From an uncultured Monoglobus sp. (GTDB lineage Bacteria > Bacillota > Clostridia > Monoglobales > Monoglobaceae), in NCBI GenBank assembly GCA_947628795.1, contig CANRBF010000002.1, forward strand, positions 1-64,000: 64,000 nucleotides of DNA, written 5' to 3'. How positions within the stretch are numbered: position 1 is the first letter of the stretch; each line of letters opens with the position of its first letter. A program made the translations under genes and the position numbers. Shown here piece by piece: positions 31,354 through 47,057 of the stretch. The notes below the pieces were generated by a model that saw only the letters and a program-made list of their open reading frames with translations, did not search any database and was not told where the DNA came from.

Positions 31354-32850
31354 TTACTTCAAATTCGGGCGTATAATTTTGTGCGACGATGTTTTGGGGA
31401 AGGGCCTGTCTCGATATACGACCGCATTTATCCGCTTGTACATCGGGATGCCTCTGTTTATTTCCGTTATTTTTCTGTCTGTGCTGAGCTTAGCCTCGTC
31501 TTTATCCATGTCGGGGTTAAGATAAATTTCCGCGGTTATCACGTCGTCATTTCCGTAAACGACGATCTCCGCCACCTCGGGAAAGCCGTCGAACTTATTT
31601 TCAAGCTCCTCGGCGGAAACGTTTTCGCCGTTTGAAAGGATAATCAGGTTTTTTGCTCTGCCCGTCATAAACAGGAAATTGTCCTCATCCAAAGTACCCA
31701 GGTCGCCCGTCCTGAGCCAGCCGTCCTCGGTGAATGCCTCGCGGGTGCGCTCCTCATCTTTGTAATATCCGAGCATAACGCTGGAGCCGCGCACCTGTAT
31801 CTCTCCGTCTTTTATCCTTGCCTCACAGTTGGGAACGACTTTTCCCAGCGAGTTAGGCTTTGACTCGAATTTTGAGTTAAAGCTGATCCTGGGCGAACAC
31901 TCGCTCATGCCGTAGCCCTGGAGCACTTTTATTCCGAATTCGTTAAATCCCGTGACAATGTTGGGATTAAGATAGGCGCCTCCGCTGTACAGCGTTCTGA
32001 GGCAGCCGCCGAACGCGGCCTTGGCGATGTCGGGCTTGGGTGTTTTCGGCTTTTGCTCAGCAGCCGCTTGAACTCCCTTGAGCATTGACGCGAAAATCAT
32101 GGGTACCGCCAGCATGATATGCGGTTTAAACAGCAGCAGGTTCCGCGCCACCCTCATGATCGAATCGTTGACGCATACGCACATTCCGCCGTGCATGCCG
32201 AGCAGTATGTCGCAGGTGAAGCAAAACGCGTGGTGTATGGGCAGCACGGTCATCATTCGATCTCCGGGCTGTTCGCCCGCGTCTATGCAGGTCGCGTTGT
32301 CTGCGATGTTCCTTTGGGTCAGCATAACGCCCTTGCTCTTTCCGGTGGTTCCCGACGTGTAGAGAATGGCGCACAGCTTGTCGCAGTCGATGTCCTTGTT
32401 CGGGGCTTTCCCGTCAAAGGTCTTTATAAAATTATACAGCTCGTCTCTCATGTTAAGAGTAAGCTCGATTTCAGGACATTTGACCGCGGCGCTCAGCGCT
32501 TTTTCTTTATACGCGTTGTCGTATACCATAACGTTTACGTCCGCTCTCTGCATCATGTCGTCGATGCTCTCGGATTCCTTGTCGAGAGGCACTATTACAT
32601 TGCCGCTTATCGCGGTTCCCAGGAAAGTGATTATCCACTCATAGCTCGTTCCGCCGATCACCGCCACATGGATCGGCTTGTCTCCGAACTTTTTCAGCAG
32701 AGCGGCGCCGAAAGCGTCGCTGTCTCTTTTGGTGCGGTTAAACGACTTGTCAATGATCTCTCTGCCCGATTTGTATCTGAGATAGGGGTTGTCGCCGTAT
32801 TTTTCGGCGGCGTCGTACACGATATCTTTTATCGAATTTATCCCGTCCAA
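31354..32850 (-). CDS. AMP-forming acyl/amino-acid ligase
   Basis: A 498-residue adenylating enzyme of the ANL superfamily (acyl-CoA synthetases and NRPS adenylation domains). The core motifs are clear: ATP loop YTSGTTGKSKGVML, adenine-binding LQGYGMSECSP, hinge-region LRTGDLG and the C-terminal catalytic lysine in KTSSHKIIRPNLK. It would activate a carboxylic acid and load it onto the adjacent carrier protein. The TTG start at 32850 follows GGAGGG. It is the last gene of a four-gene operon: hydrolase, condensation-like protein, ACP, ligase. Fatty-acid versus amino-acid substrate cannot be decided by eye. Confidence 0.88.
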   Translation of the reverse strand: MDGINSIKDIVYDAAEKYGDNPYLRYKSGREIIDKSFNRTKRDSDAFGAALLKKFGDKPIHVAVIGGTSYEWIITFLGTAISGNVIVPLDKESESIDDMMQRADVNVMVYDNAYKEKALSAAVKCPEIELTLNMRDELYNFIKTFDGKAPNKDIDCDKLCAILYTSGTTGKSKGVMLTQRNIADNATCIDAGEQPGDRMMTVLPIHHAFCFTCDILLGMHGGMCVCVNDSIMRVARNLLLFKPHIMLAVPMIFASMLKGVQAAAEQKPKTPKPDIAKAAFGGCLRTLYSGGAYLNPNIVTGFNEFGIKVLQGYGMSECSPRISFNSKFESKPNSLGKVVPNCEARIKDGEIQVRGSSVMLGYYKDEERTREAFTEDGWLRTGDLGTLDEDNFLFMTGRAKNLIILSNGENVSAEELENKFDGFPEVAEIVVYGNDDVITAEIYLNPDMDKDEAKLSTDRKITEINRGIPMYKRINAVVYRDRPFPKTSSHKIIRPNLK

Positions 32851-32864
32851 AACTATCCCTCCAA

Positions 32865-33092
32865 TCAGCCTTGCTTTGACTTAACGTACTCGACAACGTC
32901 GCCCAGGGTCCGCATGCCGGCGACGTCGCTTTCGTTTACCTCAATGTCAAAAGCGTCCTCAAGGTCGCCGACCGCGCACATGATGTTGTACGAGTTCATG
33001 CCCAAGTCCTCAATGAATTTTGATTCCTCGGTGATCTCGTCGGGCTCTGTCTCGGTGTACTCCAGAATTATTTCTTTGATTTCGTCAAACAT
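32865..33092 (-). CDS. acyl carrier protein
   Basis: A 75-residue carrier protein, acidic and helical, with the phosphopantetheine attachment motif DLGMNSYNIM (Ser34). The ATG at 33092, 8-9 bases behind AAAGGTTG, is preferred to a TTG at 33101. It lies 14 bases ahead of the AMP-ligase gene and 28 bases after the condensation-like gene, so it is almost certainly dedicated to this operon rather than to housekeeping fatty-acid synthesis. It would need a phosphopantetheinyl transferase encoded elsewhere. Confidence 0.9.
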   Translation of the reverse strand: MFDEIKEIILEYTETEPDEITEESKFIEDLGMNSYNIMCAVGDLEDAFDIEVNESDVAGMRTLGDVVEYVKSKQG

Positions 33093-33120
33093 ATCTATCA
33101 ACCTTTCTTAATATATATAA

Positions 33121-34518
33121 TTATACCGTTTCAATTATTTCGTTTATGGTGCGCTCGTCGTCCTCGATAACCTCGAACAATATCTTGCAGAGATAATAGT
33201 ATATGTACTCCAGCTGCTCGGGCGTCACCGCGCCTTTTTGGTATTCCCAGAAAAAGTCCAGACCGCGGGTCTCGGGGTTGTGCATTACGGTCAGATAATA
33301 CGGCTGCGCCGCGACTCCGTTTGACAGCCACTTGGCCTCATAATCTATGTCCTTGAGCATATCGTTGCTCTCGCGGAAAGACATGGGCTGATATGTGAGC
33401 GAGACCGAATCGTAGCTCTCGCCGGGCTGATTCCCGAACCGCTTGCAGATCTCGCCGTTAAGCTTTATCGGGTCATAGTTGGCATGCCTGAAGATCTTGT
33501 TCTGCATCTCCTGTATCTTTCTGATCGAGTCGATATACTTCATGCTGTTGCTGAACTTCATTCGGAATGGGAAGAAGTGTATCCTTGTGCCGCCGCTCTT
33601 TTTCTCAAGCACTGTTCCGCGCCGTGACACAGTCGTCTTTATGCTTATGTCTTCGGCGTATCTGTTGAATTTTGAGAGGTAAGTACGAAGCGCCGAGATC
33701 AGCAGACAGACCATGGGAACGTTCTTTTGTTTGCAGTATTCCATCAGTCTGTTTGAAGGCTCCTCCTCAAGGGAAAAATTGCATATGTCCGCAACAACGG
33801 TCTGAGACGTGACCTTCGCGCTGCGCTTGTCGGGATCGCCGCTTTCCTTGCGGGCCTTATCCAGCCTTGACGGGCCGAGAATATCGGTGAATATCGGCTC
33901 GTCCGACAGCACCGTTTCCTCCCAGAACTGCCTGTCGCGCTCCTCGGCTTTGCTGCCCGCGTACTTTAAGTCCTTTTCAAGTGACTGAATATACGAGCGT
34001 AATTCCTTGGGGTACGGCGTGTCATACAGTGCGTTGCAGTATATCTCGATAACGTCGCTTATAAACACGATGATCGACGATGAATCCCACGCCATGTGAT
34101 CGACCAAAAAGAACACGCCGGTGTAGCCGTTGGGCATCCTAACGTAGTAGAGCCGAAACATCTGGGAGTCAAAGCGTTCCATGGGTATTGTTGTCAGGCG
34201 CTTGAGCTCCGCCTCGGCCTCCTCCTGAGTTTTTCCCCATGAGGCGAAGTCTAAGAACTCGGACTCATTCATCGGCTCACTAGAGAGATACTGGCATATA
34301 TCGCCGTTTTTATCCTTGCGGAACCTGATGTGCGCGGCCTCGTACCTGTCGTATGATTTCAAAAACGCGTCGCGCAGCGCTTCAAAATCCATTTCGCCGT
34401 TCATAAAAATGCTTGTTCCTATGTTGAGTACCTCGGGATGTCCCGAGCATTGCAGCTGTGTGTAAAAGTGCATTTTTTGAGCCGGAGTTAAGGGATAAGT
34501 TTTTGTTTTCTCAGCCAA
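33121..34518 (-). CDS. stand-alone condensation-domain (NRPS C-like) acyltransferase
   Basis: A 465-residue protein with the two-lobed chloramphenicol-acetyltransferase-like fold of NRPS condensation domains. The catalytic motif HHxxxDG appears as VDHMAWDSS (His141, Asp145). The essential second histidine and the aspartate are kept, while the first histidine is Asp and the glycine is Ser. The N-terminal segment YPLTPAQKMHFYTQL matches the C1 motif of such domains. It would join the ACP-bound acyl group to an amine or hydroxyl. The TTG at 34518 lies 5-6 bases after AAGGTGA; a GTG at 34527 falls inside that site. No adenylation or reductase domain is fused. Confidence 0.8.
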   Translation of the reverse strand: MAEKTKTYPLTPAQKMHFYTQLQCSGHPEVLNIGTSIFMNGEMDFEALRDAFLKSYDRYEAAHIRFRKDKNGDICQYLSSEPMNESEFLDFASWGKTQEEAEAELKRLTTIPMERFDSQMFRLYYVRMPNGYTGVFFLVDHMAWDSSSIIVFISDVIEIYCNALYDTPYPKELRSYIQSLEKDLKYAGSKAEERDRQFWEETVLSDEPIFTDILGPSRLDKARKESGDPDKRSAKVTSQTVVADICNFSLEEEPSNRLMEYCKQKNVPMVCLLISALRTYLSKFNRYAEDISIKTTVSRRGTVLEKKSGGTRIHFFPFRMKFSNSMKYIDSIRKIQEMQNKIFRHANYDPIKLNGEICKRFGNQPGESYDSVSLTYQPMSFRESNDMLKDIDYEAKWLSNGVAAQPYYLTVMHNPETRGLDFFWEYQKGAVTPEQLEYIYYYLCKILFEVIEDDERTINEIIETV

Positions 34519-34542
34519 AATAATCACCTTGCCTTATTAAAA

Positions 34543-35481
34543 TTATAAATTTTTTGTCTTGTCAATGAATTCCGCGACAGCTTTTCTGTAGCTTTCGGTG
34601 TCGATAAAATAGCTCTCCGCGTGAGCCGCGTTTTTTATTATCAACAGCTTTTTGTATTTTGAATCAGACACGTCATATATCTCGGGTGCCATGTAAGACG
34701 GCACAAACGTGTCGTTCTCGCCGTGTATAACGAGCAGAGGAAGGGTCGAGCTTTTGACCGCCTCAACCGAGCTCGCGTCCTTGTAGCCGTACTTCGCGAA
34801 AACGCGGCAGTACAGATTCGATATCTGCAAAAGCGGAAACGACGGCAGGTGGTACCATTTGTTTAACACGTGCTTAAACACGTCGTATGCCGATGTGTAG
34901 CCGCAGTCTGCGATGATGCCCTTGACCGAATCGGGTAGTTTAAGCCCGCTCGTCATCAGCACGGTCGCAGCTCCCATGGAAACGCCGTATAAGTATATCT
35001 TTCGTTTGCCGCCGAATTTTTTGTCAAGATATTCGGCCCATTTTTGACAGTCATACCTGTCGAGCGCTCCGAAACCGACATATTTTCCGCCACTTTCGCC
35101 GTGGGCCCTGTCGTCAATCAAAGCAACGTCAAAGCCGAGCCCGTTTAAGTACCGCGTTATATGGCTGAATTGGCTCCTCGAATCCGAGCGATAGCCGTTA
35201 AAGGCCGCAATCAGGCAGCCGTTCGAATTTGCCGCGGGATAATAAAACCCCGCGAGCTTTATTCCGTCAAAGCTCGAAATGCTCATATTCTCGCACCCGG
35301 CCGCGTCGAGCCATTCGCGGCTCTCTTTAAGCAAAAGCCTGTGTTTGTCCCATGAGCCGCCCGACATTTTGGTTGCCGACGCGCTGCTGCCGCTGCGCGG
35401 TATGGTTTTTATAAACAGCACTCCCGCCCCAATCATAAAGCCGAGAGCGATCAGAATAATTGCTCCAAAAATATATAACAT
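34543..35481 (-). CDS. membrane-anchored alpha/beta hydrolase
   Basis: A 312-residue alpha/beta hydrolase. The N-terminus is a single hydrophobic segment (about residues 2-27) placing the catalytic domain outside the membrane or anchored to it. The nucleophile elbow GVSMGA (GxSxG), a later VIHGENDTFVP with the acid, and NAAHAESY with the histidine complete a triad. It is the first gene of the ligase/ACP/condensation operon. It might release, transfer or degrade the product, or act as an independent esterase. The predicted location differs from a classical cytoplasmic type II thioesterase. Confidence 0.85.
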   Translation of the reverse strand: MLYIFGAIILIALGFMIGAGVLFIKTIPRSGSSASATKMSGGSWDKHRLLLKESREWLDAAGCENMSISSFDGIKLAGFYYPAANSNGCLIAAFNGYRSDSRSQFSHITRYLNGLGFDVALIDDRAHGESGGKYVGFGALDRYDCQKWAEYLDKKFGGKRKIYLYGVSMGAATVLMTSGLKLPDSVKGIIADCGYTSAYDVFKHVLNKWYHLPSFPLLQISNLYCRVFAKYGYKDASSVEAVKSSTLPLLVIHGENDTFVPSYMAPEIYDVSDSKYKKLLIIKNAAHAESYFIDTESYRKAVAEFIDKTKNL

Positions 35482-44483: not shown

Positions 44484-47057
44484 ATGAAAACAAAATTTAT
44501 TAAGATCCCGTTTCCCAAAGCGGCCGTGTTCGCGGCCTTTATACTATCTATTATACTGTTTATGCCGGGCTTGTCAAGTATATGCCGCGCGGAAGAATTA
44601 AAACCCGCGGAATTATATTTCGAGCCCGTCGGTGGCGGAAAGTTTATATATTGTAACAACACAGAAGGAATATTCAGAGAATATCTTGCCGACTCGTCGA
44701 ATCCGAATCCGAGATACACCATGTCAAACTTTGATTTGACACCCGACAGGTATTACATATATCTGTCGCATATCAATTATACCTACGGCTACGACGAGAG
44801 CTATAATCCCCACGGCCTCGGGTTTGATGTTGAGCTTGATCTTGAGATAACGGCGAAAGAAGACTCGGTCCTCAGAATAAACAGAGCCGCGTTTGAAACC
44901 CCTAAGGTCAAAAGATATCTTGACGAAAGCGGAAATATGAAATACGTTTTTCCCACATGGGGCGCGGAAAACGCGGTCGCTACCATGATGAATCACGATA
45001 TTTATATGCTGAATTCCGACATTGTGTTTAAAAACAACGGTTACTCGCCCAAAACCGTCAGCATCAAAAAGGGCGAGACGGTTTGGCTCAGCGAGTTTAT
45101 CGACAACTATTCGGCGTGCGCCATGATACTGCCGGTATTTATGACTGCCGACATCGAGCTGCTTTCGGGAAAAGTCGATATGAACGTTGCAGAGCTCCGC
45201 TCAAAGGACGGAAAGATCGGAGACCGATCGGATTTTAACAGAGATAACGTCGCGTTCGGCTCATATCTCAGAGACAGATGCTTAAAGGGTGTTGCCGACA
45301 GCCTGCCGGAGGTCGAGACAGAGCTTGAATACGAGATTGACGACACTATAGCCGACGGAACATATCTTCCCGTAAAATTCAAAAACCAGTACACGCCTGA
45401 TGAGGTCGTTTTGGACTCTTGGGTCACGAATTTAAATCCGCAGGATGATATATGGGCAAAGTATACAACCGCCGAATCCGACATGCTGGCGCTAAAGTAT
45501 TACGACCCGTCAAAGCTTGAATTTTACGGTTCAAACGTGCCTAAAGGCAGGCGAAGCGACACATGGATATTTGACACGCGGCACAGCGATACCCGCGAAT
45601 ATGTGTCAGAGTCGGATTTCTCAAAGGAAAACTATATCCCGAATTACGAGCTGTCACCCGAAAAGGACAATCAGGGTTTCGGCTGCAGCATGGGAAACTA
45701 CGGCGTCACCACGAGGTATAACCTCAAAATCACAAATAACGGAGAAAAGACGAGATACTTTAATTATGACGCGTCGACCGCGGCCGATATTATCGTTACC
45801 ATGAAAAATAAGGACGGCAGCCTTTGGCGCGGACAAGAGCATCCGATCATAGCCAAAGGCGGCCACGGCACAAATATCGTGACAGACACCTGCGCCTATG
45901 CCGAGCTGCCGGCGCGCAGTACGACCGAGTTCACGCTTGAGACGCTGCTCCCGGTAAACTATTTGGGCGGAGTGACAAACGCTTTCAGAATTTCCGACGC
46001 AAAGCCGAAGATGACATTTTTGACGAGCTACAGAACGATGCTACCCGATTATGACACCATATACAATAAATATTTTGACGAGTACAGCGAAAAGGCTGAC
46101 GACGCGACACAGAAATTGTTGTCGGGCAACCTCGATAATTTCGAGGTGACAAAGACCAACAGAGGTTATATGCTGCGCTTCAAGGCCTGGGACGCGAACC
46201 CGAATTTTCAAGGAAACTTCAAAACGGTAGGCAGCGACATATATTTCCTGGACAATAATTTTTGTTATACCGGAAAAAGCCGGTTTGACGAGTTTCCGTT
46301 GAAAGCTGTAGAAAGCGACGGCAAATGTACGGTAACGCTGCAAAGCGGCAGGCGTCTGTTCAGCGCCGACGAAAAAACCTGGCACGAGCCGCTTTGGCCC
46401 GCCGATGAAGACGAGAGCCTTGATAAAATACTGGTATCATTAAACGGAGAATTTTTGGAATTTGACGTCGACCCCATATTGGTCAGCGACCGCACGCTTG
46501 TTCCGATGCGAAAGATTTTTGAGACTCTAAAATTAAGTGTAAACTGGAATGACTTTACACGAACGGCAACGGCGTATGACGAGAACCGCGTGATTTCGTT
46601 TACTTTAGGCAGCAATACCGCTGTTGTAAATGGAAAAGACTTTACACTTAATGTTGCTCCCGAGCTGTGCCGTGACCGCACTATGATACCGCTCAGATTC
46701 TTGAGCGAGACGCTCGGATACAAGGTGAGCTGGGACGATGCCTCAAGATGCGCGTATATTGACGACTATCCGAAGCTTCCCGACAGCGGTTCAAAGTATT
46801 ATGTTATATACAGAGAAGGCTATAGAGACGATCGAGTCGAAGCGGTCATGTTTGACACGAATGTTTCCGAGCCGCGCATTATATGGAACGGGGCTGCAGC
46901 GATAGAGGGCGACAATTCTCAGGTTTTGAACGACAAAAAATATTACCTTGATGAGGAAACAAACAGCTGGGTGCTTTTTGAGGAAAATTTCGGCACGATC
47001 AGCAACAACGCCTCGATGATAATAAAAGCCAACCTCCCTACTGACATCCCCCGTTAA
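44484..47057 (+). CDS. large secreted protein with C-terminal copper-amine-oxidase-N-like domain
   Basis: An 857-residue exported protein. A signal peptide spans about residues 1-33 (KTKFIK, then a hydrophobic stretch ending SSICRA-E). Most of the protein (40-640) is unrecognised, with repeated beta-rich segments. Residues about 650-775 show the PF07833-type copper amine oxidase N-terminal repeat: DRTLVPMRKIFETL and DRTMIPLRFLSETLG. Such domains are usually wall-anchoring or binding modules in Clostridia. The last residues read into a palindromic element (47031-47104), so the true C-terminus may be altered. GAAAGGA precedes the ATG. It stands alone. Function unknown. Confidence 0.8.
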   Translation: MKTKFIKIPFPKAAVFAAFILSIILFMPGLSSICRAEELKPAELYFEPVGGGKFIYCNNTEGIFREYLADSSNPNPRYTMSNFDLTPDRYYIYLSHINYTYGYDESYNPHGLGFDVELDLEITAKEDSVLRINRAAFETPKVKRYLDESGNMKYVFPTWGAENAVATMMNHDIYMLNSDIVFKNNGYSPKTVSIKKGETVWLSEFIDNYSACAMILPVFMTADIELLSGKVDMNVAELRSKDGKIGDRSDFNRDNVAFGSYLRDRCLKGVADSLPEVETELEYEIDDTIADGTYLPVKFKNQYTPDEVVLDSWVTNLNPQDDIWAKYTTAESDMLALKYYDPSKLEFYGSNVPKGRRSDTWIFDTRHSDTREYVSESDFSKENYIPNYELSPEKDNQGFGCSMGNYGVTTRYNLKITNNGEKTRYFNYDASTAADIIVTMKNKDGSLWRGQEHPIIAKGGHGTNIVTDTCAYAELPARSTTEFTLETLLPVNYLGGVTNAFRISDAKPKMTFLTSYRTMLPDYDTIYNKYFDEYSEKADDATQKLLSGNLDNFEVTKTNRGYMLRFKAWDANPNFQGNFKTVGSDIYFLDNNFCYTGKSRFDEFPLKAVESDGKCTVTLQSGRRLFSADEKTWHEPLWPADEDESLDKILVSLNGEFLEFDVDPILVSDRTLVPMRKIFETLKLSVNWNDFTRTATAYDENRVISFTLGSNTAVVNGKDFTLNVAPELCRDRTMIPLRFLSETLGYKVSWDDASRCAYIDDYPKLPDSGSKYYVIYREGYRDDRVEAVMFDTNVSEPRIIWNGAAAIEGDNSQVLNDKKYYLDEETNSWVLFEENFGTISNNASMIIKANLPTDIPR

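Follow-up and report, generated by a model that had tools for sequence, protein, structure and literature searches.

The closest described systems are the fatty acid amide (FAA, N-acyl amine) clusters of gut Clostridia, a family founded, according to the citations in PMC13142362 and PMC13060934, by Chang et al. 2021 (doi 10.1038/s41564-021-00887-y). In the OaaA/OaaACP/OaaC system of Coprococcus eutactus, associated with oleoyl aminovaleric acid, OaaA attaches a fatty acid to OaaACP, from which OaaC transfers the acyl group to a free amine such as aminovalerate or GABA. The three proteins produce fatty acid amides in vitro (PMC13142362). The family is marked by a DHxxxDS motif as well as a free-standing A protein and ACP, and its published enzymes accept free amines and exclude amino acids (PMC13142362). 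Condensation proteins of the family best match starter condensation domains in structure, and OaaC carries a helix, Gln214-His224, described as inserted when compared with a modular C domain (PMC13142362). The same set, in the gene order condensation protein, carrier protein and ligase (C-T-A) and named the CTA operon, is present in 36 Lachnospiraceae species; in Blautia it has been linked to oleoyl dopamine and acyl ethanolamines (PMC13060934). Acyl amines were higher in CTA-positive than in CTA-negative isolates of Blautia and Coprococcus, and a role in fatty acid detoxification has been suggested (PMC13060934).

The locus analyzed here lies in a 64-kb window, the whole stretch of 64,000 nucleotides taken from a contig of an uncultured Monoglobus sp. 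It consists of four minus-strand open reading frames running from 35481 down to 31354 in the order H-C-T-A, together with the following features.

35623-35602, minus strand: terminator closing the upstream FMN-reductase gene (sequence scan)
35589-35561, minus strand: promoter TTGACA-17-TATAAT, 12/12 match (sequence scan)
34543-35481, minus strand: H, alpha/beta hydrolase of S33/Hydrolase_4 type, 312 aa (Pfam Hydrolase_4, 8e-18)
33121-34527, minus strand: C, stand-alone condensation protein, OaaC-like, 468 aa (Pfam Condensation PF00668, 6.9e-39)
32865-33101, minus strand: T, acyl carrier protein (ACP) with a GMNS phosphopantetheine site (Pfam PP-binding PF00550, 1.7e-10)
31354-32850, minus strand: A, free-standing AMP-ligase, fatty-acyl-ligase-like, 498 aa (Pfam AMP-binding PF00501, 1e-57)
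31335-31306, minus strand: intrinsic terminator 3' of the ligase, 12 pairs (sequence scan)

The sigma-70-type promoter is located 80-108 bases 5' of H, directly past the FMN-reductase terminator, and is one of two perfect TTGACA-N16-18-TATAAT matches in the whole window. The second such match is found at 44577 on the minus strand. Given the promoter and the flanking terminators, H, C, T and A look like one transcription unit. Close packing of a hydrolase, a condensation protein, an ACP and an AMP-ligase had been proposed in an earlier note on this DNA, and the reading frames, the Pfam assignments and the operon's own promoter and terminators confirm it. With the listed starts the intergenic gaps are 15, 19 and 14 bases. 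The gaps of 14-28 bases given in that note are reproduced if the ACP begins at the ATG at 33092, which sets the distance between C and the ACP at 28 bases. This ATG is probably the true start, as its spacing from AAGAAAGG is better. The FMN-reductase gene was considered as a further operon member and rejected, since a terminator and a promoter intervene and since the gene is distant or absent in the stretches read for loci L027-L030.

The likeness to the C. eutactus system extends across the three core genes, with a free ligase, an ACP and a stand-alone condensation protein. Against PDB sequences, C has a sole match, 12KH (OaaC of C. eutactus), to which it is 36% identical along its full length (E 7e-97). 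The extra OaaC helix aligns gap-free in the window protein and corresponds to a helix at residues 220-229 of its model, the absence of this helix from the modular C domain being taken from PMC13142362. Residues 143-149 read DHMAWDS, as had been pointed out earlier, in place of the HHxxxDG of canonical condensation domains, and this fits the FAA hallmark (D/H)HxxxD(S/A). The AlphaFold model of C (pLDDT 90.5) has starter C domains (CDA C1, RzmA Cs) as its best folds among the solved structures listed, with 12KH absent from the matches listed for the model. Starter condensation domains belong to modular NRPSs, with an HHxxxDG motif and an aminoacyl-PCP acceptor. The partner proteins score with fatty acid rather than amino acid families. 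The ligase scores best with a long-chain acyl-CoA ligase model, by a wide margin over amino-acid adenylation, but reaches the curated cut-off of no named acyl ligase model. The ACP scores best with ACPs of fatty acid synthesis and retains the phosphopantetheine serine, and a phosphopantetheinyl transferase gene (PF01648) is found in the same genome. Elsewhere, a 4'-phosphopantetheinyl transferase gene adjoins the C-T-A genes (L038:4179-4856 on the minus strand, L039, L048, L050, L071, L200 and L203; PF01648 confirmed in the two scanned loci, L038 and L203), an arrangement that a dedicated activator of the ACP would lead one to expect.

We consider the locus to be an FAA biosynthesis operon of the CTA family, with a probability of about 0.88, the reactions and the product class being judged by analogy with OaaC and Blautia. 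By kinship with OaaC, the ligase would activate a free fatty acid and load it on the dedicated ACP, and C would move the acyl group from the ACP onto a freely diffusing small amine, followed by release of an N-acyl amine, the most likely product. The earlier idea of a short NRPS-like route, with acyl loading of the ACP and transfer to a free acceptor, was thus essentially right, since the ligase scores as acyl-CoA-type and OaaC, the nearest protein to have been characterized, performs such chemistry. The same note had left the product and acceptor wide open, with a lipid, a peptide or a surface decoration as options. This was too open because the FAA class is known and its acceptor is a free amine. 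The pathway class has already been described, and the Monoglobus operon adds to an existing family. A close match to a characterized cluster, which the earlier note had said would refute its proposal, holds at the family level, with the same gene set and the 36% identity to OaaC. The C-T-A order is shared with the operon of Blautia wexlerae and other Lachnospiraceae, compared here by its description (PMC13060934). That study reports CTA from Lachnospiraceae only, whereas the window operon comes from Monoglobaceae. The window operon starts with an S33 hydrolase, and OaaC was compared as a protein rather than by its gene neighborhood.

The hydrolase is the least explored part of this arrangement and is not mentioned in the main texts of PMC13142362 and PMC13060934. 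Its catalytic triad is intact, with the nucleophile S168 in GVSMG, D257 and H287, and is invariant in all 58 H homologues. Of the membrane-anchored alpha/beta hydrolase suggested in the earlier note, the fold stands by Pfam, and the anchor takes the form of a predicted N-terminal hydrophobic helix (residues 2-25 of the model) that would fit this role. By a simple hydropathy cut-off, only 25 of the 58 hydrolases carry a membrane helix at the N-terminus, with many others just under the cut-off, and membrane anchoring is thus not claimed for every H. Directly upstream of C, H is found in 9/9 Monoglobus operons (the window and 8 other genomes) and in all 38 loci of a second, large Lachnospiraceae clade. 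The spacing between H and C in the latter ranges from -121 to +99 bases, most commonly as a 4-base overlap. Distances among H proteins correlate with those among C proteins (r 0.83 within Lachnospiraceae, 0.94 overall; none of 2000 permutations as high), a weak proof of interaction because linked genes share ancestry. The Monoglobus and Lachnospiraceae hydrolases are close (group HS33m), and neither the C tree nor the H tree decides for or against a sister relationship. Other CTA lineages place different enzymes in the same position. An esterase of PF00756, unrelated to H, is directly upstream of C in 28 named loci (by clustering; Pfam-confirmed in four), and a separate S33 branch holds this position beside C in further CTA loci. 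That hydrolases of several kinds have repeatedly been paired with C suggests that they have a genuine function. The PF00756-type esterase is ~425 aa long and is seen at L051:3582-4859 and in 27 other loci of Lachnospiraceae or Oscillibacter type.

On these sequence grounds, the presence of H in the operon is not accidental. We tentatively suggest, at somewhat less than even odds, that one major gut FAA branch (H-C-T-A) has H as its own dedicated fourth member, which would act at the membrane to liberate fatty acids from esters of dietary or membrane origin and couple this step to amine conjugation. On several occasions CTA lineages would have recruited a different esterase to this position, and the acceptor of the Monoglobus branch may be one not previously encountered in the family. 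The presumably membrane-anchored H, most likely an esterase or lipase, would free the fatty acid from esters for the ligase, and FAA output would then depend on ester lipids besides free fatty acids. H might instead serve in editing or product turnover, clearing wrongly loaded acyl groups off the ACP or degrading the amide rather than supplying fatty acids. Such a role is compatible with the alpha/beta-hydrolase fold and with the thioesterase DcsB appearing among the structural matches of the model beside monoacylglycerol lipases. We regard it as rather unlikely, since the best sequence and structure matches of H are esterases (Pf2001), cinnamoyl/feruloyl esterases and monoacylglycerol lipases, the Pfam scan gave no match of H to the thioesterase family PF00975, and a membrane anchor suits lipid substrates. 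H might also be a passenger without any part in FAA metabolism, as the silence of the two main texts and the C-T-A operons without a neighboring hydrolase in the Ornithomonoglobus/Roslinia clade and some Lachnospiraceae could indicate. The unchanged triad, the fixed position 5' of C in both Monoglobus and the Lachnospiraceae clade, and the esterases of other origin found there in other CTA lineages make this improbable.

The four-gene order is repeated in 8 further Monoglobus genomes, so the arrangement is not due to chance. Among named records, the nearest are MAGs of "uncultured Monoglobus sp." whose isolate names include "Lapin", which we read as rabbit. Conservation of the order in other gut genomes, a point on which the earlier note had made its proposal depend, is borne out in Monoglobus and the large Lachnospiraceae clade. 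The C-T-A order is likewise widely kept, with 54 of 55 named loci and 54/59 Lachnospiraceae loci. In the Lachnospiraceae sample, 82 of 396 genomes had any match and ~63 had a strong stand-alone C homologue (E below 1e-40). The first scan of named loci used two peptide patterns and left out the whole Lachnospiraceae DHMTMDA clade. In that first sample H seemed confined to Monoglobus, with independent recruitments elsewhere, a view overturned by the wider Lachnospiraceae sample, in which H-C-T-A is common. Within Monoglobus the operon is accessory, as the near-complete, single-contig genome G005 of the same genus has the flanking FMN-reductase and spore-germination (GerA) genes with no H-C-T-A beside them (G005:C1:264000-283000, L103). 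A TetR-family regulator gene lies convergent beside many OaaC-type operons (L080:5488-6063 on the minus strand, L077, L078, L083, L084, L087 and many of L145-L160) and is possibly a fatty acid or amine sensor.

Monoglobaceae are a lineage of pectin degraders, and the range of FAA operons is here extended to this family, with a large branch of these operons consisting of four genes rather than three. At the family level, FAA operons make signaling lipids able to act on the host. FAAs of gut Clostridia act on human GPCRs (PMC13142362), and those of Blautia appear to detoxify free fatty acids (PMC13060934). Both the conserved H and the acceptor of the deep branch to which the window belongs are worth following.

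The acceptor of the window operon might differ from those of described systems. In the trees of C, which drew on OaaC and the homologues collected here rather than on the 127 published sequences, with just four modular C domains as the outgroup, the clade of the window forms a deep branch outside the OaaC clade. OaaC itself is nearer to Ornithomonoglobus and many Lachnospiraceae proteins than to the clade of the window. Almost all OaaC-type proteins have DHxxxDS as their motif, and the second Lachnospiraceae clade has mostly [DHNS]HxxxDA, a pattern of serine and alanine that agrees with the shares published for the FAA family. A methionine follows the catalytic histidine in the window's clade, compared to an arginine in OaaC-type proteins (DHMAWDS versus DHRLMDS in OaaC), a difference that might, or might not, matter for the acceptor. 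With 36% identity and a deep branch outside the OaaC clade, the acceptor and even its class could differ, and the altered residue beside the catalytic histidine may point to an acceptor in the Monoglobus branch other than those seen in the FAA family. Taken further, the same operon could use a hydroxyl, an amino acid or an envelope component as acceptor, and its product would then be a lipid of structural or envelope type instead of an N-acyl amine that is released. The deep divergence of C from OaaC, the motif interior (DHMAW against DHRLx) and the membrane-anchored partner expected from the predicted helix of H would suit such a product. However, every core mark of the FAA family is present, and published FAA enzymes take free amines and exclude amino acids, which makes an envelope product very unlikely.

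The condensation protein is also clearly separated from modular NRPSs. A 100/100 branch splits all OaaC-like proteins, including the one in the window, from the HHxxxDG-bearing C domains of this genome's modular NRPSs. The tree placement called for in the earlier note puts the condensation protein with OaaC. That the operon is a fragment of an ordinary modular NRPS can be dismissed as extremely improbable: modular NRPSs with C domains do occur in this genome, but the operon has no multi-domain line, HHxxxDG motif, amino-acid-type A domain or PCP fusion, its C is far from those domains in the trees, and its free-standing genes keep a conserved order. The modular NRPS frames of the genome (G000, contigs C10 and C14; L001-L003 and L005) comprise 2462 and 2998 codons and carry the canonical HHxxxDG. 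Two loci stand apart on long branches. An Oscillospiraceae C-T-A locus without a hydrolase (L049:5649-8828, HHMTMDA) is located near the base of the family tree. At L203:5757-9717, a divergent gene set in the order C, A, T and phosphopantetheinyl transferase, with the motif NHMIQDS and a very long branch, does not constitute a standard CTA operon.
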